The position numbers and the translations under genes were made by a program. 64,000 bases of DNA from Nocardia pneumoniae NBRC 100136 (lineage in GTDB: Bacteria; Actinomycetota; Actinomycetes; Mycobacteriales; Mycobacteriaceae). Within the stretch, counting starts at the first letter, position 1; the number at the start of each line of letters is the position of its first letter. The notes under the pieces are model-generated. The model was not told where the DNA came from. It did no database searches and saw only the letters and a list, made by a program, of their open reading frames with translations. Where the stretch lies: positions 62,001-126,000 of the forward strand of contig NZ_BAGF01000075.1 of assembly GCF_000308755.1 (NCBI RefSeq), read 5' to 3'. Positions 1-18,937 of the stretch are shown here, piece by piece.

Positions 1-381
1 GTGGACATCCAGCTCACGTGCCAGTGCCGCGACGAACTCCACCGCCGCGATGGACGTGCCGCCCGCATCGAAGAAGTCGGTGTCCGCGTCCATGGTCGTC
101 GCGGTGAACCGATTCGCCACCACGGTGACGGCCGCGGCCAACGCCTCGGCGTCCATTGGCGTCGCGCGGGGTGCGGTGTCGGCCCGAGGCGCGCCGTCAC
201 CGTTTCCGGGCAGCGACCCACTTCCATCGGCTTCCGCCAGCGGGGCCGCGCCTTTGCCGCCCGCCCGGGCGAGCAGGGTGGCGACATCCAGTCCGACAGC
301 GCCCCGTTCGAGGGTTTCGCCGCGCACGCGACGGTCGACGCCCGGGTTGCGGACCTGCGTCGGCTCGTCAGGAACGGTCAC
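1..381 (-). CDS. Carrier-protein-containing protein, 3' part beyond window (partial)
   Basis: The reading frame starts at GTG 381 and is open to the window edge (127 codons). The GTG overlaps the stop codon of the giant synthase (GTGA), so the two are translationally coupled. The first 75 residues are Gly/Ala-rich and unassigned. Residues about 80-127 form a phosphopantetheine carrier domain, with the motif DFFDAGGTS and the modifiable Ser at residue 110. What follows is outside the window, so it could be a free carrier or the head of a larger NRPS/PKS. Because the preceding protein ends in an FkbH-like domain, which in known systems loads a glyceryl unit onto a carrier, this carrier is a natural candidate acceptor. 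That role is inference; the carrier motif and the overlap are seen directly. Confidence 0.8.
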   Translation of the reverse strand, partial: MTVPDEPTQVRNPGVDRRVRGETLERGAVGLDVATLLARAGGKGAAPLAEADGSGSLPGNGDGAPRADTAPRATPMDAEALAAAVTVVANRFTATTMDADTDFFDAGGTSIAAVEFVAALARELDVH

Positions 382-3300
382 CGTGTCACGTCCTCTCCAT
401 TCGCCGGTGTCTCCCAGGACCGGAACTTCCGCAGGCGATCGGGCGTCGCGGCCACGTCCAGCCGTTGATCGTCGGAGCTGCCGCCGAGCAGGCGCGCGGC
501 CAATCGGCGCGCGGGTGCATTGCGGACGGTGTGCTCGACCGACATCCGCACCGTGGAGCAGCCGAGCGCATCGGCCCGATCCGCCACCCAATTCAGCAGC
601 CGCTCCTCGACGCCGCGTCCGAGGGCCCGGCAGCTCAGTTGCCAGCCGCTGACCCACAGACTGTCCGCGTCCACCCGGAGTGCGAGTACCGAGATCAGGC
701 CGTAGTCGCCGAACCGGTCGCGCGCCGTCGCGGTCCATACCTCGCCCTCGTCGCGCCACCTGTCGAGGTCATCCGCGGCGACCTCGGCGAGGGTGAACTG
801 CGTGGTGCGCCGCACGAGTTGTCGCGCACGCTCCATGGTGGCATCGGTCAGCTGCTCGAGGTCGACGACGAGGTCCAGCTGCTCCAGGAATTCCGCGAAT
901 TCCGCGGTGGCGCGCGCATTGTCGCGCTCCTGCTCCTGGCGGTAGAAATCGGCCCGCGCACGATCCTCGGCCGTCGCGGCGATCGGCACCATCGGCCACA
1001 GTCGCGCCAGGAACGATTCGAGTTCACCGGCGGGAGGGCACGTCACCGACAGCACCTCGGGCAGCATCGCGCGCATGCGCGCCACTTCCACCGGGTTGTC
1101 GTCGAGATAGCAGAAGCTGTCCAGTCCCAGCCGCAGTGTGCGAGCAACCTCCTCCAGCCGCTCGGGTTTACCGCCCCAGCCCGCCGAGATGGCGGCGAAA
1201 TGCTCGCGCCGCAATGGGCTGTCGGACCGATTCAGGATGTCGCGGACGATATCATCGTCGTTGTTGGTCACTAGCACAAGCAGCGTTCCCGCCGCGCGCC
1301 ATTGCAACAGCCGCCGAGCCAGCGCCTGGCGGGGCTCATCGAAAGACACCGCGCCCGAGCCGATTTCGCCAGCGGTTCCGCTCCACAATGTGTCGTCGCC
1401 GTCGACGGCGATCACCTTCGGCGCGGGCTCGGTCACGGCCGCGGCGGTCGCGACGAGGGTGAGCGCGACCGCCGCCTGGAATTCCGGTGTGAACGGCAGG
1501 TGCGCCAGAATCTCGGTCCGGTCGTCGAACGGGTTGTCCACCGCGTGGTGGCGCGTCCACTCCCCTGGCTCCAGCACCGCGACGCCGGGAATGTCGCGCA
1601 GGCGTTCGGCGACGAGCCGCTCCCACGCGAGCAACCGTTCCTCCGGGCGGGCCGAGGGCAGGATGCCGACGATGACCGGCCGGTGCGCACGTTCGGCCAC
1701 CTCGCGCACGGCCGCCGGGTAGTCGGCGGCCAGCTCCGCGAGCAGGTGATCGGAGACCGCGCCGAAACGTTCCAGATCCGCCGCGCGCAGCAGCACGATG
1801 CCCAGTGCCGTCGACGGTTGCGCGAAGACGCCCGACGGGTCACGCAGGCAGGACAGCACATGGTGATACGGCGCCTGCGCGACGGTGATCGCCGTGGCAT
1901 CCGAGGACGCCGCCGCCATCAGCTCCGGCAGCCTGCCGAGCGCGAACGTCGCGCCCAGCGCCGCACGAAGGCCGGAAACCGGCCGCTCACTGGTTCCGGG
2001 CCGGGCGGGCGCCCCCGGGTCTGCGACCGCGGCCGCGACCGTCTTCAGGTATTCCGTGCCGAACTCGGTGCAGGTCCGGGCGTCGATGATGTCGCTGTTG
2101 TGGGTCAACCACACCTGGCCGGTATCCGGCAGCACCGCCACCATGAGGTCGAGATCGGAATAGCCGGTGCTCACCGGAACGATCGCGGCCCGCGTGACGG
2201 CGGAGTTTGCGCGCAGGTAGTTGAAGTACACCTCGATCAACGGCGCGTTCTCGCGGTACAGGCCCTCGGCGGCCAGCGCGGCGAGCGCATCCGCGAAGCC
2301 CGCGCCGGGCGCGAGCAGATTCCGCAGCCGCTCGCCGGTGCGGCGCAGCACGTCGCCGACGAGATCACCGTCCGCCACGGCGGCCGGGAACGGCACCGGC
2401 ACACCGAAATACCCGACCGCATCGGTCGCGTCGGCGTGCATCCGGGTGTCCACCGGGACCGCGAGGGCGAAGCGGTCGACCTGCTGCCGACGTGCCAGCA
2501 GGACGGTCAGCGCGCCGAGGAATACCGCGGCGGGGGTGACGCCGAGGTCGCGGGCCCGGTCCGCGACCCGGTCGTGCAATCCGGGCGGCATGTCCAGCGC
2601 GATCGATCCCGCACCGTAGCTGCGCTGGGCCGGACGCGGCCGCGCCAAGGTCAACTCGAGTCGGCGAGATCCGGAGAAGGCGTCGCGCCACCGGGTGCTC
2701 GCGGTGTCTGCGCCGTCGCGGCTGCTCGACTGCGCGGCGAGCAGTTGGTGCATATCGCGGTTGGTGACGGCGTCATCGAGCTGCGTGCCCGACAGTTCCG
2801 CGGCGAGTTCGCCCGCGACCAGCAGCATCGACTGCACGTCGCTCATGCTGTGGTGCGCGCCGAAAAGCAATACCGGATCGGCGGATTCGGCATGGAGAAG
2901 CTCGAAGCGCCACAGCGGGCCCGTCGCCAGATCGAACGGCAGCGCCATCAGCTCCCGGAAGCGCTCCTGCACGACGGCGTCATCGAGTCGGTCCAGATCG
3001 CGCCAACCGGCCAGCGCGCCGGGTTCACGGCGGATCTCCAGCTGACGTCCGTGCTCCTGGCTGGGCTGGATAGTCGTGCGCAGCGCCGCATGTCGGCGGG
3101 CCAGCCGCGCCAGCGCCTGCTCCAGCCGCGGCCGGGTGACCGGCGCGGGCAGCCGCACGGCGACGCCGCCGGTCTGCGCGGCGGCGGGGATACCGAGTTG
3201 CTCGGTCCGCAGCAGACGCATCATGTCCCGGGTCACCGGAAGCACCTCGACCTCGGGCACTTCGGTGGCCGCGGCATCCGGCGCGTCGGCGTCGGACTGC

Positions 3301-6300
3301 CGCAGCAGCTCACCGACGAGATGATCGGCGAGGTCGGTGAGACTCTGCCCGGCCAGCATCGTGCCGAGCGGCACCGAGATTCCGGTGTGCTCGCGCACCT
3401 TGTTGCGCAGTTCGACCGCCATCAACGAGTCCAGGCCCAGACTCTGGAAGGACTCCTCGGCCGCGACCGTCTCGGTGCCCGCATGACCGAGCACCTCCCC
3501 CGTCCACTCGGCCACCGCGGCGAGCACCAGGGCGGTGGCCTCCGCGCGCGGTACGGCCCGCAGTTGTTCGGCGAAGCGCGATCCCACCGCCACGTCGACG
3601 GTCGCGCGGTCGGCCACGGCTCGGCGTGGCACGCGGCGCACGAGTCCGCGCAACAGCGGCGGCACGGCCGGTGCGCGGCGCAGCACGTCGGTGTCGAGCA
3701 GCAACGGGACCAGCAGCGGATCACCAGCCCGCAGCGCGGCATCGAAACACGCCATCCCCTCCGGCACCGAGAATGCGCGGATGCCGGCGCGCGCGATGCG
3801 CCGGATATCGGCCTGCGCCATGTGGTCGTGCATATCGACCTCCCACGCACCCCAGGCCAGCGACTGTGCGGGGAGACCGAGCGACCTGCGATGCAGCGCC
3901 AGCGCGTCGAGATAGGCGTTGGCAGCCGCGTAGTTGGCCTGCCCTGGTGTCCCGAACAGACTCCCTGCCGCGGAGAACAGCACGAAGATCGACAGCTCCC
4001 GATCCGCCGTCAGCGCGTGCAGATGGTGTGCCGCATCGACTTTCGGACGCAGCACGGCGTCGAGCTGCGCTGGCGTCAACGAGCCGAGTGTGCTGTCGTC
4101 GAGTACGCACGCCGCGTGGACCACACCGGCCAGCGGCATGCCGTCGAGCAGCTGCGCCAGAGCCGAGCGGTCGCTGACATCGCAACGCGCGAATCGCACG
4201 CGCACCCCGCGGCTCTCCAGCTCATCCCGCAATCCGGTGCCGCCGGGACCATCGATACCGCGGCGACTGACCAGCACCAAGTCTCGGGCCCCGTACGCGT
4301 CGGCCAGGTGACGGGCCAGCGCCGACCCCAGCCGCCCCGGCGCCCCGGTGACCAGCACGGCGCCCTCGCCGAGCGATACCCTGCCTTCCGATACGCGCCC
4401 CGCCGTCTCCGGCAGCCGGGCCAGCCGTGGCACGAACGCCACTCCGTCACGCACGGCCACCTGCTGTTCCCTCGCGGCGAGAAGCGCGGCGACATCCACC
4501 TCGGGGTCGGCGGTGTCGACCAGCACGATCCGGCCGGGATTCTCCGACTGCGCCGAGCGCACCAGCCCCCACACCACCGCGCCTGCCGGATCCGGGCTGT
4601 CCTCACCGGGCAGCGCTACCGCGCGGCGGGTACGCACGACCAGCGTCGCCTGCTCGAATCGACTGTCGGCGAGGATCGTTTGCAGCGCCGCCAGAATCTG
4701 CTGGGCGGTGTCGTGTACGTGTCTCGGCGACTCGCCTTCGGGCACCGGCAGCACGATCACGTCAGCGGGCATCGGGACCGCGGAATCCCATTCGGCCAGC
4801 GTGAGCGTCCGGTCCGGCGCGGGCAGCGGAAGCTGCGCCCAGTCCATCCGGAACAAACGACGGTACGCGGGCGCGATCGATGCGGCATTCCACTGCGCGG
4901 CGGCGACCGCACGCGACAGCACCGAACCCACCGACACCACCGGACGTCCGGTCCGGTCGGTCGCGGACATGGTGACGGTGTCGGGCCCCGACCGGGTGAG
5001 CCGCACCCGGAGCGCGGTGGCACCGGAGGCCCACAGCGCGACATCGCTCCACACGAACGGCAGCAGGGCGTTCTCGTCGTCGGCGGCGAACAGCGCGGTG
5101 GCGTGCAACGCGGCATCCAGCAAGGCCGGATGGATACCGAATCTCGCGGCATCGCGATGAGCGGATTCGGCCAGTTCGACCTCGACGAAGATTTCGTCAT
5201 CACGTCGCCACGCCGCCCGCATCGCCTTGAACAGCGGGCCATAGTGGTGCCCGCGCGTGAACAGCTCGGCGTACAGGTCGTCGACATCGACGCGCACCGC
5301 TTCCGCTGGCGGCCATGCCGACGAATCGATTTGCGCCGGAAGGTATTCCGACTGTTCGGCCAGTGTGCCGTCGGCATGCAGCGTCCACTGGGCATCCGGA
5401 TCGTGTTCATCACGGGCGTAGACGCGCACCGTGCGGCGGTTGCCGGCGTCGGCGCCACCGACCACCACCTGGATCTGCAAAGCTCCGCGATCGGGGACGA
5501 GCATCGGGGCGCGCAACACCAGCTCCCGTACCACCGGGCTGTCCACCTCGTCACCGGCGCGGACGGCCAGTTCGACCAACGCCGCGCCGGGCACCAGCAC
5601 CGCGTTCGGGCCCGCGTGATCGGCCACCCACGGCTGCTGCTGACGCGACAGCCGCCCGGTCAGTGTGATGCCACCCGAATCCGGCTGCGGCACACCCGCA
5701 CCGAGAATGGGGTGGGCGACGTCCTGAAGCCCGAGCGAAACGGTGTCGCGGTTGACCGGGTCGGTCCAGAACCGCCGCTCGTCGAAGGCATAGGTGGGCA
5801 GGTCCACCCGCCCGCATTCGGGAACCAGCCGGGTCCAGTCGAGTTCGTGGCCCGCGACATACAGTTCGGCCTGCGACCTGGCCAGGCAGGTGGGTCCGTC
5901 CTGGTCCCGTACCAGCGAACCCACGGCCACCACCTCGCGCGCGAGCTCCTCCGCGACCGTCCGGACGGCCGCGGTCAGCGACGGGTGCACGCCGAGTTCG
6001 ACGAAATACCGGAACCCGTCGGCGATCATGCGCTCGATCGTGGCCGCGAACCGCACGGTCTCGCGCGCGTTCCGATACCAGTAGCCGGGTCCGATCGGCT
6101 CGTTCGTCATCAATTCGCCCGACACCGTCGAATACCACGGAGTCGCAGGCGAATTCGCCGACATACTCGCTAGTTCCGTCGTCAACGGATCGCGGATGGA
6201 CTCGATCAACCGGCAGTGCCCGGCGAACCCGGGACCGGCCGCGCCGAGCCGTGTGTAGATTCCCGCACTGTCCATCGCGGCCAGGAGTTCTTCCACCGCG

Positions 6301-9300
6301 GCCTGCTCGCCCGCCACGATCGTCGAGCGACGCACATTGACCGCCGCGATCGACACCCGGCCGCCGAACTCCGCCAGCCGTCGGCCGACCTCGGCCTCGG
6401 GCAGGCCGATCATCGCCATCGCGCCCGGGGCGGTGATGCCCTGCATCAGGCGGCTGCGGGTCATGACGATCCGTGCGGCATCGCTCAATTCGAGGACACC
6501 GGCGCAGTAGGCGGCGGCGATCTCCCCCTGACTGTGGCCGACGACCGCATCCGGGGTGACGCCCGCCGCCCGCCAGGCGGCCGCGAGCGCGGCCATGGTC
6601 GCGAACAGCAGGGGCTGCACGACGGGGAAATCAGCGAGGTCCGCGGCGGTCATGGTGGTCAACCGGTCGCTCAGCGACCAGTCGAGGTGTGCGCTGAAAG
6701 CCTTGTCGCACTTCTCGAATTCGGTGCGGAACTCCTCGCAACTGGCGAGCATGTCGCGCGCCATGCCGACCCACTGCGTCCCCTGCCCCGGGAAGACGAA
6801 TGCGGTTTTGGCGTTGGTGAGCACCGGACCGGCGCCGACGACGGCATTCGGCGAGGGTTTGCCGTCCACCAGATCGCGCAGCGCACGCACCATCTCGTCC
6901 CGATCGCCCGCCACCACGACCGCACGTCGCTCGAACTGAGTGCGCTGCAACGCCAATGCACGCGCGACCGGACCAGGCTCCAGCCGCGGATCGGCGACCA
7001 CCAGGTCGAGCAGCCGTTCGGCCTGGCCGTGCAGCGACGGCTGACTGCGGGCCGAGATCGGCAGCAGCGCCACGCTTCGGTCGTCCACCGTGTCCGGTAC
7101 GACCACGGGTTCGGGCGGAGCCTCCTCGAGAATCACGTGCGCGTTCGTGCCGCTGAGCCCGAAGGCGCTCACCCCGGCGCGTCGCGGCCGATCCGACCTC
7201 GGCCACGGCATGGGCTCGGCCTGCACTGTCACACCGCTGCGCTCCCAGTCGACCTGGGGCGACGGCACACCCGCGTTCAGGGTGGCGGGGATTCGTTCGT
7301 GGTGCAGTGCGAGCACCAGCTTCATGACGCTGGCCACGCCTGCCGCAGCCTGGGTGTGCCCTACGTTGGACTTCAGCGACCCGATGCCCAGCGGCCGGGC
7401 CGGGTCACGATCCGGCCCGAACACCCGCGCCAGTGCGCGCGCCTCGATCGGATCGCCCAGCGCCGTGCCCGTGCCGTGCGCCTCGACATAGTCGATATCG
7501 TGCGGAGCCAGACCCGCGACACGCAGTGCCGAACGCAGGACCTGCTCCTGGGCAGCGCCGTTGGGCGCACTCAACCCCTGACTGCGGCCGTCCTGGTTGA
7601 CCGCGGAACCCCGAATGACCGCGAGGATACGGTCCCCGCTTCGACGTGCGTCGCCGAGACGCTTCAAAAGCAGCAGACCGGCGCCTTCCGCCCACACGGT
7701 TCCGTCGCCGTCGGCGGAGAACGGCGCGCACCGGCCCGTCGGCGACAGCACACCCAACCGGCACAATTCGATATGGGCGGTCGGTGACATCAGCAGCGTC
7801 GCGCCGCCCGCCAAGGCGAGATCGCACTCCCCCGCGCGCAGTGCCTGCATCGCCAGGTGCATCGCGACAATCGACGAGGAACACGCCGTGTCCAGGGTGA
7901 CCGCCGGACCGTGCAGCCCCAGCGTGTAGGCGATCCGGCCGGACGCGACACTCGGTGAGAGTCCCGTTCCCACCTGGCCGTTCAGCTGCTCCGGTGCCGG
8001 GTCGGCCAGATAGCCGGTGCTGTACACGCCGAGATAGACGCCGGTCGCACTGCCGTGCAGGGTGCGTGGATCGCGTCCCGACCGCTCGATCGCCTCCCAG
8101 CTGAGCTGCAACATCATGCGCTGCTGCGGATCCATCACCGCGGCCTCGCGCGGGCCGATGCCGAAGAAAGCGGCATCGAAGCGATCGATGCCGTCGACGT
8201 ATCCGCCGCGGAAGGTGTACGCCTTGCCCGGCGCGGAGGTGTCGGGGTCGTACAGCCCGTCGATGTCCCAACGGCCCGCGGGTACCTCGGTGAGCGCGTC
8301 ACCGTTGCCGTCCAGCAGCCGCCACAATGCCTCGGGCGAATCCGCGCCGCCGGGGAATCGGCAGGACATCGACAGGATCGCGATCGCGTCGTCGTCCGCG
8401 TCGTCGGCCGCGGCCGCATCCGTCTCGACCGCCTCGACACCGGCCTGGCCCGGCGCGTTCGGCGCGGCGGGCGCCAGTGCCGTGGCGACCTCGTCGATCG
8501 TGGGATGGTCGAAGAACAGATTCGTGTCGATGAAGCGTCCGAGGAACTCCGACAGGTCGACCACCAGCTCCACCAAATCAGCCGAGCCCAAACCGAATTC
8601 GACCATCGGGCGGTGCACATCGATGCGTTCCGGATCCAGCGCGGCCTGCCGTGCGATCGCCGTCACCAGCCAGGACCGGACCGCCTCCGCGGACGGCTCG
8701 GCCGCGGACGCCTCGTTCAGCGTGTCCGCTTCGTAGTCGTCCAGCTCGTCCTCCGGCGACCGCACCGGACCCGCCGACAGCGCGATCAACTCGCCGGACA
8801 GATACGCCGCCCGGCACGCCGCACGCTGGATCTTCCCACTGCTGGTCTTGTAGATCGTGCCCGGCCGGATCAGCAGCACGGCCGCGAGCGTGAGACCGTG
8901 GTCGGTCGCCACCGCCGCACGCACGGCGCCCTCGATCTCGGCCAACTCGCCGGGATCCGCGCCGCGCACCTCGGCCACCACGACCGGCTGCTCGCCGCCC
9001 ACTCCCACGTCCGCGGAAAACGCCGCGACGCATCCGGCCCGGACATTCTCGTGCGCCGCCTCGACGGTCAACTCGATGTCCTGCGGATAATGATTGCGGC
9101 CGTCGACGATCATCAGATCCTTGTGTCTTCCGGTGACGAACAGCTCACCACCGGAAAGGAACCCGAGGTCCCCGGTACGGAGGTACCGGCGATCGTCGCC
9201 GGGCAGCGTCGCGCCGAACATCTCGGCGGTGGCCTGCTCGTCACGGAAATATCCCGCGGCAACGCTGTCGCCCGCGACCCAGATCTCGCCTTCGTCCCCG

Positions 9301-10469
9301 TCGGCACGCTCGGTGCCGTGCTCAGGATCGACGACCGCTATCGAGATTCCCTCAGGCGGCTGTCCGACACCGACCAAATCCGCATTGCGAGTGCGGTTGC
9401 CGTCACCGGATCGCCCGGCGACCTCCAACACTGTCGGCGTCCCGGTGGTGGACGACGCGGTCACGATCAAGGTGGCTTCGGCCAGACCATAGACCGGCCG
9501 GAGGGATTCGGCGCGGAAGCCGGCGCGAGCGAATGTCTCGGTGAACCGCCGCACCGTCGCGGCGCGCACGGGCTCGGAGCCATTGAACGCCACCCGCCAT
9601 CGGCTCAGGTCGAGCCGCTCGATCCGCTCCGGCGACATCCGGCGCAGGCACAGTTCGTAGGCGAAGTTGGGGCCGCCGCTGGTGTGGGCGCGGTAGGTCG
9701 AGATCGCCTGCAGCCACCGCTCGGGGCGCTGCAGGAAATGCAGCGGCGACATCAGCACCGAATTCCCACCGAGATAGACCGTCTGCAGTATCGGCGCGAT
9801 GAGCCCCATGTCGTGGTACATCGGCAGCCAGCTGGCGAACAGCGCACCGTCCCAGGACTCGATCACCGCGCGGTCGTGGCCGAGCCCCGCGGCGATCGCA
9901 CGCTGGTTGTGCAGCAGATTCCCATGGGTGAGCAGCACACCCCTCGGCGCGCTGGTCGAGCCGGAGGTGTACTGGATGAACGCGACCGAGTCGGGTCCGA
10001 GATCCGGCTCCCGCCACCGCGATGCCCATTCGTCGGCCATCTCGTCGGTGGCCAGCCACGGCAAGGGGGCCAGCTCGGGAATCTGCGCATGCAGTGCGGC
10101 CGAATCCGCGACGATACGCCGCGAGGCCAGCACCACATCGACATCCGCGTGCGCCACCATCCGCCGCAGCCGATGCATCGACCGGTTCTCCCATTCCGGC
10201 AGCGGCGCGGGGACGGCCACCACTCCGGCCGCCAGGCACCCGAAGAACGCCTCGATGAACTCCGGACCGGCCGGATACAGCAACAGCGCCCGCCGCGGCA
10301 TCGAATCCTGGAGTGCGGCGCCGATCGCCCGAGCACGGACACCCAGGTCGGCGTACCGCATTTCGCGGACCACACCGTCGACGTCACCGCTGTCCAGGAA
10401 CCGGTACACCAACTCGGTCGGCCGATTCTCGACTTGGGCGAAGAGTGTCTCGACGAAAGTGTTGTGCAC
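378..10469 (-). CDS. FAAL-PKS-condensation-FkbH hybrid megasynthase
   Basis: 3363 residues, GTG start with a GAGGAAG ribosome site. Domains in order: fatty acyl-AMP ligase 1-580 (YTSGSTSAPRG at 167-177); carrier about 597-668 (LGSADL); ketosynthase about 693-1115 (Cys863, His998, His1038); acyltransferase about 1222-1520 (GHSQGE, Ser1313); dehydratase about 1585-1860 (His1618, Asp1785); ketoreductase about 1900-2260 (TGAPGRLG at 2041, Ser2166, Tyr2180, LDD motif of B-type reductases); carrier (Ser2348); condensation-like domain 2408-2820 (AHHSMSD at 2538-2544); FkbH-like region 2850-3350 with HAD motif VDGDDT (Asp3023, Asp3025). There is no enoylreductase. The order implies that a free fatty acid is adenylated, extended once and reduced/dehydrated, then joined by the C domain to another unit, possibly glyceryl. 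The AT specificity tetrad is F-A-G-H rather than YASH or HAFH. The product is unknown to me. Confidence 0.93.
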   Translation of the reverse strand: MHNTFVETLFAQVENRPTELVYRFLDSGDVDGVVREMRYADLGVRARAIGAALQDSMPRRALLLYPAGPEFIEAFFGCLAAGVVAVPAPLPEWENRSMHRLRRMVAHADVDVVLASRRIVADSAALHAQIPELAPLPWLATDEMADEWASRWREPDLGPDSVAFIQYTSGSTSAPRGVLLTHGNLLHNQRAIAAGLGHDRAVIESWDGALFASWLPMYHDMGLIAPILQTVYLGGNSVLMSPLHFLQRPERWLQAISTYRAHTSGGPNFAYELCLRRMSPERIERLDLSRWRVAFNGSEPVRAATVRRFTETFARAGFRAESLRPVYGLAEATLIVTASSTTGTPTVLEVAGRSGDGNRTRNADLVGVGQPPEGISIAVVDPEHGTERADGDEGEIWVAGDSVAAGYFRDEQATAEMFGATLPGDDRRYLRTGDLGFLSGGELFVTGRHKDLMIVDGRNHYPQDIELTVEAAHENVRAGCVAAFSADVGVGGEQPVVVAEVRGADPGELAEIEGAVRAAVATDHGLTLAAVLLIRPGTIYKTSSGKIQRAACRAAYLSGELIALSAGPVRSPEDELDDYEADTLNEASAAEPSAEAVRSWLVTAIARQAALDPERIDVHRPMVEFGLGSADLVELVVDLSEFLGRFIDTNLFFDHPTIDEVATALAPAAPNAPGQAGVEAVETDAAAADDADDDAIAILSMSCRFPGGADSPEALWRLLDGNGDALTEVPAGRWDIDGLYDPDTSAPGKAYTFRGGYVDGIDRFDAAFFGIGPREAAVMDPQQRMMLQLSWEAIERSGRDPRTLHGSATGVYLGVYSTGYLADPAPEQLNGQVGTGLSPSVASGRIAYTLGLHGPAVTLDTACSSSIVAMHLAMQALRAGECDLALAGGATLLMSPTAHIELCRLGVLSPTGRCAPFSADGDGTVWAEGAGLLLLKRLGDARRSGDRILAVIRGSAVNQDGRSQGLSAPNGAAQEQVLRSALRVAGLAPHDIDYVEAHGTGTALGDPIEARALARVFGPDRDPARPLGIGSLKSNVGHTQAAAGVASVMKLVLALHHERIPATLNAGVPSPQVDWERSGVTVQAEPMPWPRSDRPRRAGVSAFGLSGTNAHVILEEAPPEPVVVPDTVDDRSVALLPISARSQPSLHGQAERLLDLVVADPRLEPGPVARALALQRTQFERRAVVVAGDRDEMVRALRDLVDGKPSPNAVVGAGPVLTNAKTAFVFPGQGTQWVGMARDMLASCEEFRTEFEKCDKAFSAHLDWSLSDRLTTMTAADLADFPVVQPLLFATMAALAAAWRAAGVTPDAVVGHSQGEIAAAYCAGVLELSDAARIVMTRSRLMQGITAPGAMAMIGLPEAEVGRRLAEFGGRVSIAAVNVRRSTIVAGEQAAVEELLAAMDSAGIYTRLGAAGPGFAGHCRLIESIRDPLTTELASMSANSPATPWYSTVSGELMTNEPIGPGYWYRNARETVRFAATIERMIADGFRYFVELGVHPSLTAAVRTVAEELAREVVAVGSLVRDQDGPTCLARSQAELYVAGHELDWTRLVPECGRVDLPTYAFDERRFWTDPVNRDTVSLGLQDVAHPILGAGVPQPDSGGITLTGRLSRQQQPWVADHAGPNAVLVPGAALVELAVRAGDEVDSPVVRELVLRAPMLVPDRGALQIQVVVGGADAGNRRTVRVYARDEHDPDAQWTLHADGTLAEQSEYLPAQIDSSAWPPAEAVRVDVDDLYAELFTRGHHYGPLFKAMRAAWRRDDEIFVEVELAESAHRDAARFGIHPALLDAALHATALFAADDENALLPFVWSDVALWASGATALRVRLTRSGPDTVTMSATDRTGRPVVSVGSVLSRAVAAAQWNAASIAPAYRRLFRMDWAQLPLPAPDRTLTLAEWDSAVPMPADVIVLPVPEGESPRHVHDTAQQILAALQTILADSRFEQATLVVRTRRAVALPGEDSPDPAGAVVWGLVRSAQSENPGRIVLVDTADPEVDVAALLAAREQQVAVRDGVAFVPRLARLPETAGRVSEGRVSLGEGAVLVTGAPGRLGSALARHLADAYGARDLVLVSRRGIDGPGGTGLRDELESRGVRVRFARCDVSDRSALAQLLDGMPLAGVVHAACVLDDSTLGSLTPAQLDAVLRPKVDAAHHLHALTADRELSIFVLFSAAGSLFGTPGQANYAAANAYLDALALHRRSLGLPAQSLAWGAWEVDMHDHMAQADIRRIARAGIRAFSVPEGMACFDAALRAGDPLLVPLLLDTDVLRRAPAVPPLLRGLVRRVPRRAVADRATVDVAVGSRFAEQLRAVPRAEATALVLAAVAEWTGEVLGHAGTETVAAEESFQSLGLDSLMAVELRNKVREHTGISVPLGTMLAGQSLTDLADHLVGELLRQSDADAPDAAATEVPEVEVLPVTRDMMRLLRTEQLGIPAAAQTGGVAVRLPAPVTRPRLEQALARLARRHAALRTTIQPSQEHGRQLEIRREPGALAGWRDLDRLDDAVVQERFRELMALPFDLATGPLWRFELLHAESADPVLLFGAHHSMSDVQSMLLVAGELAAELSGTQLDDAVTNRDMHQLLAAQSSSRDGADTASTRWRDAFSGSRRLELTLARPRPAQRSYGAGSIALDMPPGLHDRVADRARDLGVTPAAVFLGALTVLLARRQQVDRFALAVPVDTRMHADATDAVGYFGVPVPFPAAVADGDLVGDVLRRTGERLRNLLAPGAGFADALAALAAEGLYRENAPLIEVYFNYLRANSAVTRAAIVPVSTGYSDLDLMVAVLPDTGQVWLTHNSDIIDARTCTEFGTEYLKTVAAAVADPGAPARPGTSERPVSGLRAALGATFALGRLPELMAAASSDATAITVAQAPYHHVLSCLRDPSGVFAQPSTALGIVLLRAADLERFGAVSDHLLAELAADYPAAVREVAERAHRPVIVGILPSARPEERLLAWERLVAERLRDIPGVAVLEPGEWTRHHAVDNPFDDRTEILAHLPFTPEFQAAVALTLVATAAAVTEPAPKVIAVDGDDTLWSGTAGEIGSGAVSFDEPRQALARRLLQWRAAGTLLVLVTNNDDDIVRDILNRSDSPLRREHFAAISAGWGGKPERLEEVARTLRLGLDSFCYLDDNPVEVARMRAMLPEVLSVTCPPAGELESFLARLWPMVPIAATAEDRARADFYRQEQERDNARATAEFAEFLEQLDLVVDLEQLTDATMERARQLVRRTTQFTLAEVAADDLDRWRDEGEVWTATARDRFGDYGLISVLALRVDADSLWVSGWQLSCRALGRGVEERLLNWVADRADALGCSTVRMSVEHTVRNAPARRLAARLLGGSSDDQRLDVAATPDRLRKFRSWETPANGEDVTR

Positions 10470-10724: not shown

Positions 10725-12050
10725 GTGTCACACACCCCCGTATCGCTGCGCGAACTTCCCCGGCTACGCAACCGTCACATCGCGCGGATCGGTGGACTGA
10801 TGCGCCCTGGCACCCACCGCTCCCCCTTGCTCGAATTCGGGGATCGGTTCGTCGTCTCGCCGCCGGGATTTCCCACCATGCTGGTCACCCACGACATGGA
10901 CGATGTACGAGAACTGTTCGCCAACCACGACGACTTCTCGATCGGGCAGGTGCTGAGTCGGCTCTCCAGCCACGACGTGATGTTCGGCAAGCAGACGTTG
11001 ATCTTCCTCGACGGTGACGACCATCGCCGCGAGCGGCGGCGGTTCGCTCCGCCGTTCCAGCACAAGGCGCTGCGGTCCTACGAGGATCTCATGGTGGAGG
11101 TGGTCGAGCGCGAACTTCCCACCTGGCCGGTCGGGGAGCCGTTCGAGTTCCTGAAGGTGGGCTATGACCTGGCCATCGGTGTCCTGCTCGGCGTCGTCTT
11201 CGGCGATGTGGCCCCGGCCCGCAGGGACCGGCTGAAGCAGGCGGTGAGCCGGTGGTTCGGGGAGATCGAAAGCCGCGGATTTCTTGCCGTCACTTTGCTC
11301 ACCCCGCTTCTCGGCGGCTACACGCCGCCCTACCCGCCGCTCAGTCGCCGCCAGTCCGATGTCGACGCCATCATCATCGAGGAGATCGCCGCACGCCGAG
11401 CCACGCCAGGGGCCGGTGACCGGAAAGACGTGCTGTCCCGGTATGTCGGCACCGAACTGGATCAGCACGACGACGCCGCGCTGGCCCGCAACATGCGCGG
11501 CGTCCTGCTGGGCGCCTACGAGACCACCGCGATCACACTCGGCTGGATCGCCGCCATGCTGGCCGGCCACCCGCAGGCCATGGCCGAAGTGGACGCGGCG
11601 GCCGACGCGGGCGACCATGCCCGGCTCGACGCGTACCTCGACGCGGTGGTCGCCGAGACGATGCGGCTGCGTCCGGTGTCCCCGTTCACCGGACGGCGAG
11701 CGCTGCGTGACACCGTGATCAACGGTGTCCACATCCCCAAGGGCGCCATCGTCATAGTCCCGATCCTGCTCATTCACGAATCACCGCGGCACTACTCGGA
11801 TCCGATGGTCTTCCGCCCCGAGCGTTTTCTCGACGAGCGACCCAAGGCCAACACCTGGCTGACCTTCGGTGCCGGCGCGCATCGCTGCCTCGGCGCCAAC
11901 TTCGCGCTCCTGGAAGCGCGCATCCTCTTCCGCACCGTCCTCCAGCACCGCCGCATCGACGCCACCCCCGGATCCGTCGAACCACCGCGCCGGTATCACA
12001 CCGGACTCAGCCCCGCGCACAACGCCCGGATCACACTCCGCCCGCGCTGA
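10725..12050 (+). CDS. Cytochrome P450
   Basis: 441 residues from a GTG start. A complete P450: I-helix AYETT at 264-268, ExxR as ETMR at 311-314, and the heme loop FGAGAHRCLG with the thiolate ligand at Cys388. Its general features recall the membrane-lipid-active CYP135/138-like P450s of mycobacteria more than the CYP105/107 group, but this is a family impression only. It is divergent from the FAAL-PKS gene across a 255-bp gap, so it is a reasonable candidate for oxidising that enzyme's lipid product. No ferredoxin or reductase gene lies beside it, so electrons must come from elsewhere. Confidence 0.9.
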   Translation: MSHTPVSLRELPRLRNRHIARIGGLMRPGTHRSPLLEFGDRFVVSPPGFPTMLVTHDMDDVRELFANHDDFSIGQVLSRLSSHDVMFGKQTLIFLDGDDHRRERRRFAPPFQHKALRSYEDLMVEVVERELPTWPVGEPFEFLKVGYDLAIGVLLGVVFGDVAPARRDRLKQAVSRWFGEIESRGFLAVTLLTPLLGGYTPPYPPLSRRQSDVDAIIIEEIAARRATPGAGDRKDVLSRYVGTELDQHDDAALARNMRGVLLGAYETTAITLGWIAAMLAGHPQAMAEVDAAADAGDHARLDAYLDAVVAETMRLRPVSPFTGRRALRDTVINGVHIPKGAIVIVPILLIHESPRHYSDPMVFRPERFLDERPKANTWLTFGAGAHRCLGANFALLEARILFRTVLQHRRIDATPGSVEPPRRYHTGLSPAHNARITLRPR

Positions 12051-17114: not shown

Positions 17115-18017
17115 TTACGCGCGGTTGCCCTCGATGTAGTCGGTGGTGTGCAAGGGAAGCCGCGGGTCGACGGCCATGTCGGCCCAGGTATGGCGCAACC
17201 ACGCGTGGGCCGGGTCGTCGCTGATCCGCCAGGCGCGCTCCGGGCCGGGACCCGCCATGACGTTCAGGTAGTACATGTGGTGGCCGGGGGCGGCGATGGA
17301 CGGCCCGTGGTAGCCGTGTGGCACCAGCACGACGTCGCCGTCGCGGACCTCCTCGAGCACATCGATGGGGCGCTCGGGCGTGCCGTAGACCCGGTGGTAG
17401 CCGAACCCCGGCGAGCCGTCCGCGCCGCGCGCGATTTCGAAGTAGTAGATCTCTTCCAACGGGGTCTCGGTCTCGGTGAGCTCGTCGTGCTTGTGCGGCG
17501 GATACGACGACCAGTTCCCGCCTGGGGTGATCACCTCGCAGGCGATGATCGACTCGGCGTCGAAGGTGTCGGCGGTGGCGAAGTTGTGCACCTGGCGGCT
17601 GCAGTTCCCGGCGCCACGCAGCTCCACTGCCACATCCGCCGCGGCGACATACCGGAACGGCAATTGCCGGTGTGCGCGGGCGCCGCCGAGTGCGAAACGC
17701 CCCCCGGCCGGGCTGGAGATCGTGTAGGAGCTGCCGCACCCGATATACGCGAAATCGGTCGGTCCATCGAAAACGCTTGTACGGCCATGCAATTCAAATG
17801 ATTCACTGCCGCAGGCCACGCTGCACGAGCCGGATAGCGGAACCACGACGACCTCATCGTGGTCGGTATCGGCCCGATACGACCCTTCGGCGCCGAGTTC
17901 GATGACGTGCAGGCTGGTGTGGTCCCAACCGGCGGATTCGGGCGTCACCGCGACGAGATGCGGGGCGCTCGCGGCGCTGCGGGCCGGTAGGTAGTGCGTG
18001 CCGCGCATCGCGATCAC
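17115..18017 (-). CDS. iolB: 5-deoxy-glucuronate isomerase
   Basis: 300 residues, the normal IolB length, with the two-lobed cupin fold. Diagnostic segments are GNWSSYPPHKHDE with the metal-binding histidines, EEIYYFEI, VPHGYHGP and GHHMYYLN. IolB converts 5-deoxy-glucuronate to 2-deoxy-5-keto-gluconate in cytosolic myo-inositol breakdown. Its ATG overlaps the stop of the upstream aldolase gene by four bases, so the two are co-translated. The next gene downstream, iolA, is a remnant, and iolC, iolD and iolE are not in this window. The pathway may therefore be incomplete or continued elsewhere. Confidence 0.92.
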   Translation of the reverse strand: MIAMRGTHYLPARSAASAPHLVAVTPESAGWDHTSLHVIELGAEGSYRADTDHDEVVVVPLSGSCSVACGSESFELHGRTSVFDGPTDFAYIGCGSSYTISSPAGGRFALGGARAHRQLPFRYVAAADVAVELRGAGNCSRQVHNFATADTFDAESIIACEVITPGGNWSSYPPHKHDELTETETPLEEIYYFEIARGADGSPGFGYHRVYGTPERPIDVLEEVRDGDVVLVPHGYHGPSIAAPGHHMYYLNVMAGPGPERAWRISDDPAHAWLRHTWADMAVDPRLPLHTTDYIEGNRA

Positions 18018-18937
18018 CGTACCAAGGACACGGCTGTGTCGACGGCTCCGGCGACGTCGCCGTCGCGTGGATACAACAGTGCGCGACCGACGATCAGCCC
18101 CCGAACACCGGGCAGCGCAAGGGCTTTCGCCCAGCGGGCGTAGGTCTCCTCGGGCGCGGTCTGCGGGTCGCCGCCGAGCAGCAGAGTGGGCAAGGTTGTC
18201 GCGTCCATGACGCGTTCCATCTGCTCGGCGGCGGGCAGCTTCAACCAGGTGTAGGCCGAGGTGGAGCCGAGTCCCTGCGCCAAGTGGATACTCTTGATCA
18301 CCGCGTCCGGCGACAGGTCGTTGACGACCTTGCTGCCCGGACCTGCGGGGCGGTGCGACATGAACGGCTCCAGCATCGCGACCAATCCGTGCGCGGCGAG
18401 TTCATCGATGGCGGCCGCGCTCGCGGTCATCATCGACAGGGTGCCGGGGTCGGTGAGATCGAACCGATTGAGCATCTTGGCGCCGTTGAGGCCCGCCGCC
18501 GCGGTGGCGGCAGCCGTGTAGGCGGTCATCCGGTCGTCGATTTCGAAGTCCGCGCCCGCGAGGCCGCCGCGATTCATCGAGCCGAACACGACCTTGTCTT
18601 CCAGCGCTCCGAGCAGCAGCAGATCCTCGATGATGTCGGCGGTACCGAGCACGCCGTCGACTCCCGGCCGGTGCAAGGCCGTGACCAAGCGGTCCAGCAG
18701 GTCTTTGCGATCGCTCATGGCATGCGGGTCGCCGGAGGCCGACAGGGCTCCGCGTGCAGGATGGTCCGCGGCGATGATCATCAATCGGCCGTCGCCGCGC
18801 ACCAGTTCGCGGCGTTTGCGCGCTGCGAACGCCCGTGCGATCGCCCCGGGATCGGCGGCGCGGACCTCGGTCAGTTCGGCATACGACCGGATCGGCGGCG
18901 TGCTCCTGGGTGGAGCGGTCAGCGTGGCTTCGGTCAT
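18014..18937 (-). CDS. Cgl0158-type (beta/alpha)8 aldolase of the inositol pathway
   Basis: 307 residues. The sequence DGRLMIIAADHPARGALSA with DHP, then GSMNRGGLAGADFEIDDRMT, GAKMLNR and MLEPFMSHR, matches the Cgl0158-like aldolase group that sits in actinobacterial iol operons. It probably takes the place of IolJ, splitting 2-deoxy-5-keto-gluconate-6-phosphate; this role is inferred from family and context. The first gene of the two-gene unit, it lies divergent from a GntR regulator with a palindrome in between. Confidence 0.85.
   Translation of the reverse strand: MTEATLTAPPRSTPPIRSYAELTEVRAADPGAIARAFAARKRRELVRGDGRLMIIAADHPARGALSASGDPHAMSDRKDLLDRLVTALHRPGVDGVLGTADIIEDLLLLGALEDKVVFGSMNRGGLAGADFEIDDRMTAYTAAATAAAGLNGAKMLNRFDLTDPGTLSMMTASAAAIDELAAHGLVAMLEPFMSHRPAGPGSKVVNDLSPDAVIKSIHLAQGLGSTSAYTWLKLPAAEQMERVMDATTLPTLLLGGDPQTAPEETYARWAKALALPGVRGLIVGRALLYPRDGDVAGAVDTAVSLVR

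Follow-up and report, generated by a model that had tools for sequence, protein, structure and literature searches.

The window analysed here, a stretch of 64,000 nucleotides from Nocardia pneumoniae NBRC 100136 (contig NZ_BAGF01000075.1, our C78:62001-126000, in a genome of 7.6 Mb), carries near its left edge a gene for a megasynthase that joins a fatty acyl-AMP ligase (FAAL) and a single polyketide synthase (PKS) module to a condensation (C) domain and a C-terminal FkbH-type domain. The cluster to which this gene belongs is, judged by its sequence, a relative of the foxicin (fox) cluster, and can be considered a conserved one-module variant of the vioprolide and fox kind, probably a glycosylating one. 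Tentatively, and with rather less than even confidence, it is read here as an acyl-glyceryl assembly line resembling those of foxicin and vioprolide, in which an acyl chain would be esterified to glyceryl-S-ACP (ACP, acyl carrier protein), released by reduction and then glycosylated; this reading uses every conserved part. Domain content, conservation of catalytic motifs, conservation of the operon and phylogeny form its basis, from which the chemical steps are inferred. New are the one-module form with a fused FAAL, the recognition that the next protein would provide reductive release, and the constant company of glycosyltransferases.

Positions 378-10469 of the window (minus strand) form a single unbroken open reading frame (ORF) for a protein of 3363 aa. 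An earlier note on this DNA had described one FAAL-PKS megasynthase with a condensation and a terminal FkbH-like domain, and the ORF agrees with this, as do the Pfam and NCBIfam matches, which give FAAL, ACP, ketosynthase (KS), acyltransferase (AT), ketoreductase (KR), ACP, C and C-terminal FkbH domains and, in addition, a dehydratase (DH) domain that the note did not list. The features of the protein, and of the gene that follows it, are:

378..10469, minus strand: megasynthase FAAL-ACP-KS-AT-DH-KR-ACP-C-FkbH, 3363 aa (ORF and translation, Pfam, NCBIfam)
8781..10469, minus strand: FAAL, residues 1-563 (PF00501, PF23024, FAAL-family NCBIfam models)
8475..8687, minus strand: ACP1, approximately residues 595-665 (limits estimated), Ser630; PF00550 matches two stretches
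7095..8390, minus strand: KS, approximately residues 694-1125 (PF00109/PF02801)
5847..6800, minus strand: AT, residues 1224-1541 (PF00698)
4896..5714, minus strand: DH, residues 1586-1858 (PF21089, PF14765)
3840..4364, minus strand: catalytic half of KR, residues 2036-2210 (PF08659), LDD and Tyr retained
3318..3500, minus strand: ACP2, residues 2324-2384 (PF00550)
2016..3161, minus strand: condensation domain, residues 2437-2818 (PF00668), motif HHSMSD
489..1919, minus strand: FkbH-type HAD domain with its N-terminal subdomain; TIGR01686 core at 489-1427, residues 3015-3327
1..381, minus strand: beginning of the following gene (first 127 aa, with the ACP Ser motif), which continues left to C78:60081

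The C domain directly precedes the FkbH domain, and the two together are 58-91% identical in 21 other Nocardia proteins, so that the megasynthase is not a chance reading. Among the 21 one-module proteins compared, HHxxxD of the C domain and motif I of FkbH, DGDDTLW (Asp3024/Asp3026), are intact throughout, while motif IV, LDDN, and the Cys of the SCR motif (Cys3281), which we take to be catalytic, occur in 20, the remaining protein ending at a stop. FkbH scores 316 bits with the NCBIfam model TIGR01686 (cut-off 147), and a sequence search of the PDB with this domain returned 3slr as the only match. All 21 proteins also retain FGLGS of ACP1, (L/M)DSLMA of ACP2 and the Cys and both His of the KS; the AT Ser lies in GHSQGE (20/21) or VHSQGE (1/21), and the FAAL motif QYTSGSTSAPRG is identical in 19 and one residue off in two. 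Inactive C and FkbH domains, which the earlier note had named as refuting its proposal, would not be expected from these sequences, the C, FkbH and carrier motifs being conserved.

By its sequence, the PKS module would not be a textbook one, and this applies to the AT, the DH and the KR. Malonyl-specific AT domains carry HAFH and methylmalonyl-specific ones YASH; the motif found is (A/G)GH, neither of the two. The DH retains its His and Asp, and the Gly of HxxxGxxxxP is replaced. In the KR, the position 13 residues ahead of the catalytic Tyr, presumably occupied by the catalytic Ser in the normal case, is Ala2168 in the window protein, Ala in 17 of the 21 one-module loci (the window and 16 others) and Ser in four; it is Ser in all 13 outgroup motifs found, the motif pattern having no match in the Streptomyces loci L159 and L171. 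The earlier note had the chain reduced once: the KR is indeed present, but beta-keto reduction is not assured, since its catalytic Ser is Ala in most of these loci.

The megasynthase gene overlaps the next one by four bases, GTGA. What had been taken for a separate carrier gene does overlap in this way, yet it is only the start of a 766-aa ACP-thioester reductase-X gene (C78:60081-62381) with 381 bases inside the window. Its ACP occupies residues 93-143, and its thioester reductase (TR) reaches 255 bits with TIGR01746 (cut-off 213) and has both the nucleotide motif GxxGFLG and YxxxK in 25/25 sequences. The carrier comes directly after FkbH, as in the order C-FkbH-T (T, carrier), here as the first domain of the overlapping next gene, and it is the loading site of the release protein, acting in trans. 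The C-terminal part of the latter, domain X of ~260 aa, is without a Pfam match. Its AlphaFold model (mean pLDDT 69) has an eight-strand barrel with generic structure matches in the PDB (Foldseek best E 1.5e-3; VIA best Z 11.1, to unrelated barrels), and its identification with a known enzyme was rejected on these grounds. By profile, domain X was found in 3 of 396 genomes across the phylum, its own included (E 1e-5). An X-like barrel domain also follows a GMC oxidoreductase (PF05199, PF00732) at 1195-3207 (minus strand) of L175, with E 7.7e-4; this genome belongs to another family of the same order, and the GMC neighbour gives X no function.

The gene after ACP-TR-X, overlapping it by ATGA, encodes a 358-aa alpha/beta hydrolase. 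Its nucleophile is Cys in 33/33 aligned sequences, and Asn stands at what is presumably the usual site of the catalytic acid, a combination that suggests acyl transfer as much as hydrolysis. Fold comparison ranked monoacylglycerol lipases first; with a model of mean pLDDT 66 and a huge superfamily, this ranking lends the acyl-glyceryl reading weak support. Further left lie a Gfo/Idh oxidoreductase gene on the opposite strand and two glycosyltransferase genes (GT28/EryCIII-like and GT4), followed by ATP synthase genes. Extending the sequence leftwards, as the earlier note had proposed, thus revealed the ACP-TR-X, hydrolase and GT28/GT4 genes.

Matches to the C and FkbH domains were found in 33 of 118 Nocardia genomes, the window's own included, with a frameshift or contig end interrupting the match in three of the 33. 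For synteny, the window's genome was tabulated together with 20 of the 32 other positive ones, and their one-module loci were fetched with flanks. All 21 of these one-module Nocardia loci have TR, X, hydrolase, GT28 and GT4, and 19/21 have Gfo/Idh. GT28 has switched side in four of the 21, lying upstream rather than downstream of the PKS and still within the cluster, so that the company of GT28 and GT4 is more than synteny. Across the named loci, which are the best 80 of 122 confirmed loci from one scan, TR, X and hydrolase were matched in all 67 with room downstream, and the order TR, X, hydrolase is common to those tabulated. Of 25 located loci, set A1 took 23 and set A2 22, the three left out of A2 being affected by an in-frame stop, a frameshift and a contig end, one each. 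The in-frame stop (L025) and the frameshift (L041) lie in C-FkbH and reflect decay or sequencing error.

Of the named species, Nocardia amamiensis and N. beijingensis come closest to the window at this locus, with 89-91% in C-FkbH. A C-FkbH tree of 79 rows, midpoint-rooted and built after L132 and L166 were dropped for their short segments, puts the window within a clade made up solely of Nocardia (26 rows, SH-aLRT 99), in which 25 rows are one-module and the remaining row is ended by its contig; GT28 is present in all but two members, both at contig ends. Two-module Nocardia rows and one Streptomyces row stand beside this clade; across the root lie the remaining Streptomyces rows, together with that of Amycolatopsis. 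Two Nocardia relatives have two PKS modules. The one-module form is not unique to Nocardia, since in two Streptomyces rows on the far side of the root, L159 and L171, a single KS comes after the FAAL, and GT28 is lacking. A GT28 relative (39-41%) accompanies the two-module form in one Nocardia genome, one Streptomyces and two Rhodococcus plasmid loci out of three compared. The examined stretches of the other two-module Nocardia loci gave no GT28 or GT4 match, save a partial GT4 in L141, nor did those of the other Streptomyces loci and Amycolatopsis. Glycosylation would accordingly mark the window's clade and some of its relatives rather than the family as a whole. A giant nonribosomal peptide synthetase (NRPS; L087/L088, G105:C4), with an open frame of 11,103 aa, contains an FkbH domain 45-47% identical to the window's.

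One of the closest known systems is the fox cluster of Streptomyces diastatochromogenes Tu6028, whose link to its product comes from disruption of foxBII, which abolishes foxicins (PMC5318452). FoxBII has been described as ACP-KS-AT-DH-KR-ACP-KS-AT-DH-KR-ACP-C-FkbH, FoxBI as an adenylation (A) domain and FoxBIII as PCP-TE, a peptidyl carrier protein with a thioesterase (TE), and the cluster was reported from no other genus, as far as the available text of the paper goes (PMC5318452). Locus L149 belongs to Streptomyces sp. Tue6028, and two of its ORFs, at 945 and 259 aa, have exactly the lengths of FoxBIII and FoxEII; identity to the window's cluster is 49-64% over the C, FkbH, TR, X and hydrolase segments, and a FAAL homologue (53%) lies directly upstream of FoxBII, a position judged from the published FoxBII length. 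In searches with hidden Markov models FoxBI is recognised as a fatty acyl-AMP ligase and FoxBIII as a thioester reductase (TIGR01746, 243 bits; L149, L176), so that FoxBI would be a FAAL rather than an A domain and FoxBIII a thioester reductase rather than a TE. Homologues of FoxBI, of the C-FkbH part of FoxBII, of FoxBIII (945 aa, ACP-TR-X) and of the hydrolase FoxEI stand in this order at the window locus. Fox differs in its two PKS modules (the window has one KS), in its FAAL as a separate gene, in FoxEII next to FoxEI and in a gene table that, in the text available, holds no glycosyltransferase (PMC5318452). At E 1e-20, FoxEII was matched in 0/32 Nocardia loci and in 25/47 Streptomyces loci, some of which are cut short; within the window's contig stretch there is none beside the hydrolase, only 24-29% matches far from the cluster. 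Fox-type clusters are also present in Nocardia, in Amycolatopsis (L156) and on Rhodococcus plasmids. Two papers from 2026, in the portions available, mention without further analysis antiSMASH '4%' foxicin matches in Nocardia, one of them in N. crassostreae NBRC 100342, the genome of L103.

Another precedent is vioprolide, whose biosynthesis starts with FAAL-ACP and C-FkbH-T and for which a glycerate ester made by the C domain is reported in the accessible parts of two papers (PMC8949500, PMC10099666); the first two modules of corramycin are described there as the same (PMC10099666). The loading region of VioA has FAAL and ACP and then C beside FkbH beside a carrier, as in the window, where, unlike in VioA, a PKS module separates ACP from C, the carrier belongs to the next protein, and a thioester reductase comes after it in place of the NRPS modules described for vioprolide. 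Corramycin agrees with the window in the domain order around C-FkbH and differs from it in having no PKS module in between and in running on as an NRPS-PKS line according to the text available. The earlier statement that no characterised pathway has this order was therefore too strong, given FAAL-ACP-C-FkbH-T in vioprolide and corramycin and the foxicin homologues; fox is indeed a homologous cluster tied to its product, though one with two modules and a separate FAAL. The proposed joining of an acyl chain to a glycerate-derived C3 unit stands as the best reading, supported by the conserved motifs, and the vioprolide precedent makes an ester likelier than the C-C bond also offered.

Under the acyl-glyceryl reading, FAAL would activate a fatty acid and load it onto ACP1, and the single PKS module would add an extender unit and may or may not reduce the beta-keto group. 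FkbH, by the chemistry of its family and its conserved residues, would dephosphorylate 1,3-bisphosphoglycerate and pass the glyceryl unit to the ACP of the next protein, after which the C domain would join the acyl chain on ACP2 to a hydroxyl of glyceryl-S-ACP as an ester, as is reported for vioprolide. The thioester reductase, whose short-chain dehydrogenase/reductase (SDR) motifs are intact, would free an acyl-glyceraldehyde, or an acylglycerol after a second reduction. The roles of the remaining enzymes are suggested by co-occurrence: the Cys-nucleophile hydrolase may move or trim the acyl group, and GT28 and GT4 may add sugars to give a glycolipid. The wider proposal, that Nocardia and its relatives make a glycolipid whose glycerol backbone derives from 1,3-bisphosphoglycerate, acyl-glyceryl-ACP being reduced to acylglycerol and glycosylated so that glycerol-3-phosphate acyltransferases are bypassed, is possible but doubtful.

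Several points weigh against the acyl-glyceryl reading. The change of the KR Ser to Ala may weaken or abolish reduction, the hydrolase could cut the ester off again, and the lack of GT28 and GT4 matches in many relatives would put glycosylation outside the shared core. The likeness of the C domain to that of vioprolide is one of domain order, not of a C-domain sequence comparison, and is suggestive to that extent. The main counter-evidence comes last: foxicin A, the one compound found to be linked by gene disruption to a homologous cluster, is described as an acylamino-benzoquinone with its PKS acyl chain as an amide and no glyceryl unit (PMC5318452), which implies that glyceryl is transient there or that the C domain releases onto an amine.

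This last point leads to the strongest of the alternatives, in itself unlikely: the acyl chain may end on an amine as in foxicin, with glyceryl a transient handle or consumed, and the product would be an acyl amide or conjugate, not a glycerolipid. The four homologues in the same order and the foxBII disruption, with the PKS chain carried as an amide, speak for it; FoxEII is missing from the Nocardia loci at the threshold given, however, and the glycosyltransferases of the Nocardia clade have no counterpart in the fox gene table as available. FoxEII was the fox accessory gene covered by a systematic search.

It is rather improbable that the hydrolase cuts the ester after release, yielding a free C3 product for which the fatty acid was a mere protecting group. 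A fatty-acid-linked precursor is proposed for the maturation of vioprolide and corramycin in the text available, and the hydrolase accompanies every locus with room for it; here, however, the release domain comes directly after the glyceryl unit, nothing peptide-like is built, and a Cys nucleophile with Asn at the acid position is odd for a simple esterase.

Formation of a tetronate by Dieckmann release, a beta-ketoacyl ester of glyceryl-S-ACP being cyclised on a reductase-like domain, is very improbable. FkbH-like enzymes are assigned to tetronate pathways, where they load glyceryl on ACP, and a FabH-like enzyme to tetronate formation, in the parts of the tetromadurin operon paper available (PMC7489565), and in the window's clade the loss of the KR Ser could leave a beta-ketoacyl chain. 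Four one-module loci of the same architecture keep this Ser, however, and no FabH-like gene is found among the 16 neighbouring gene products scanned, the scan having been confined to these. Redox-dead Dieckmann release domains (R*) have lost the SDR Tyr, a hallmark absent here, where YxxxK and the nucleotide motif are intact; this Tyr and the lack of a FabH-like neighbour disfavour the tetronate. The same 16 products include no methoxymalonyl-ACP set (two dehydrogenases and an O-methyltransferase by FkbH). Least probable of all is that C and FkbH are relics and that the line yields no more than a fatty aldehyde or alcohol: C-FkbH is interrupted by an in-frame stop in one relative and by a frameshift in another, but the motifs are otherwise intact and the identity across the 21 other proteins is that given above.

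Five Rhodococcus plasmids (L184, L188-L191; R. pyridinivorans and Rhodococcus sp.) match C-FkbH over most of the query. All five regions have TR, hydrolase and ccrA, the TR-X gene of L191 being split by an IS3 element. GT39 and a second glycosyltransferase follow in four, and the fifth stops at an insertion sequence (IS) element and the record end; in two out of three loci compared this second enzyme proved to be related to GT28 (39-40%), and L184 also encodes a PF00756 esterase. The R. pyridinivorans plasmid operon (NZ_CP040721 and four related records) shares FAAL-PKS-C-FkbH, TR-X and hydrolase with the window and differs from it in its two PKS modules, ccrA, PMT-type (GT39) transferase, PF00756 esterase and location on plasmids.

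On the other side of the megasynthase gene lies one further feature:

10878..12050, plus strand: cytochrome P450 (PF00067), divergently transcribed

As only 15 of 21 one-module loci have it, the P450 is an optional partner. To its right follow unrelated-looking genes for a GDSL lipase, a phosphoesterase, a glyoxalase and phytase-like, IolB-like and Cgl0159-like proteins. The last two, at 17115-18937 (minus strand), adjoin a GntR regulator and probably serve sugar or inositol catabolism; a sugar isomerase and an aldolase of about the same sizes appear in the available fox gene table (PMC5318452). A long glyceraldehyde-3-phosphate dehydrogenase (GAPDH) gene, 12 kb left of the glycosyltransferases, was considered as a conserved tie to 1,3-bisphosphoglycerate supply and rejected. 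Such a gene adjoins the FAAL in Tu6028, and none was seen beside the cluster in 16 other Nocardia genomes, a result limited by draft contigs: the long GAPDH is on the cluster's contig at a distance of ~65-90 kb in two and of more than 0.6 Mb in three, it is on another contig in six, and in five only a short GAPDH was found.

Searches of an open-access library, with some papers available in part, gave no account of an assembly line that turns a glycolytic intermediate into acylglycerol lipids, nothing on FkbH with glycolipids or on Nocardia with FAAL, glycolipid, polyketide synthase and glycosyltransferase together, and for FkbH with thioester reductase a software paper only. Purified proteins would allow the FkbH, C and TR steps to be examined one by one. 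With FoxBI as a FAAL and FoxBIII as a thioester reductase the proposed route to foxicins changes. If the acyl-glyceryl reading is true, a glycolytic intermediate would feed an assembly line for acylglycerol-type lipids, the same core would recur with other glycosyltransferases on Rhodococcus plasmids, the published Fox model would need revising to match, and a conserved orphan cluster would gain a function in a genus with clinical members.

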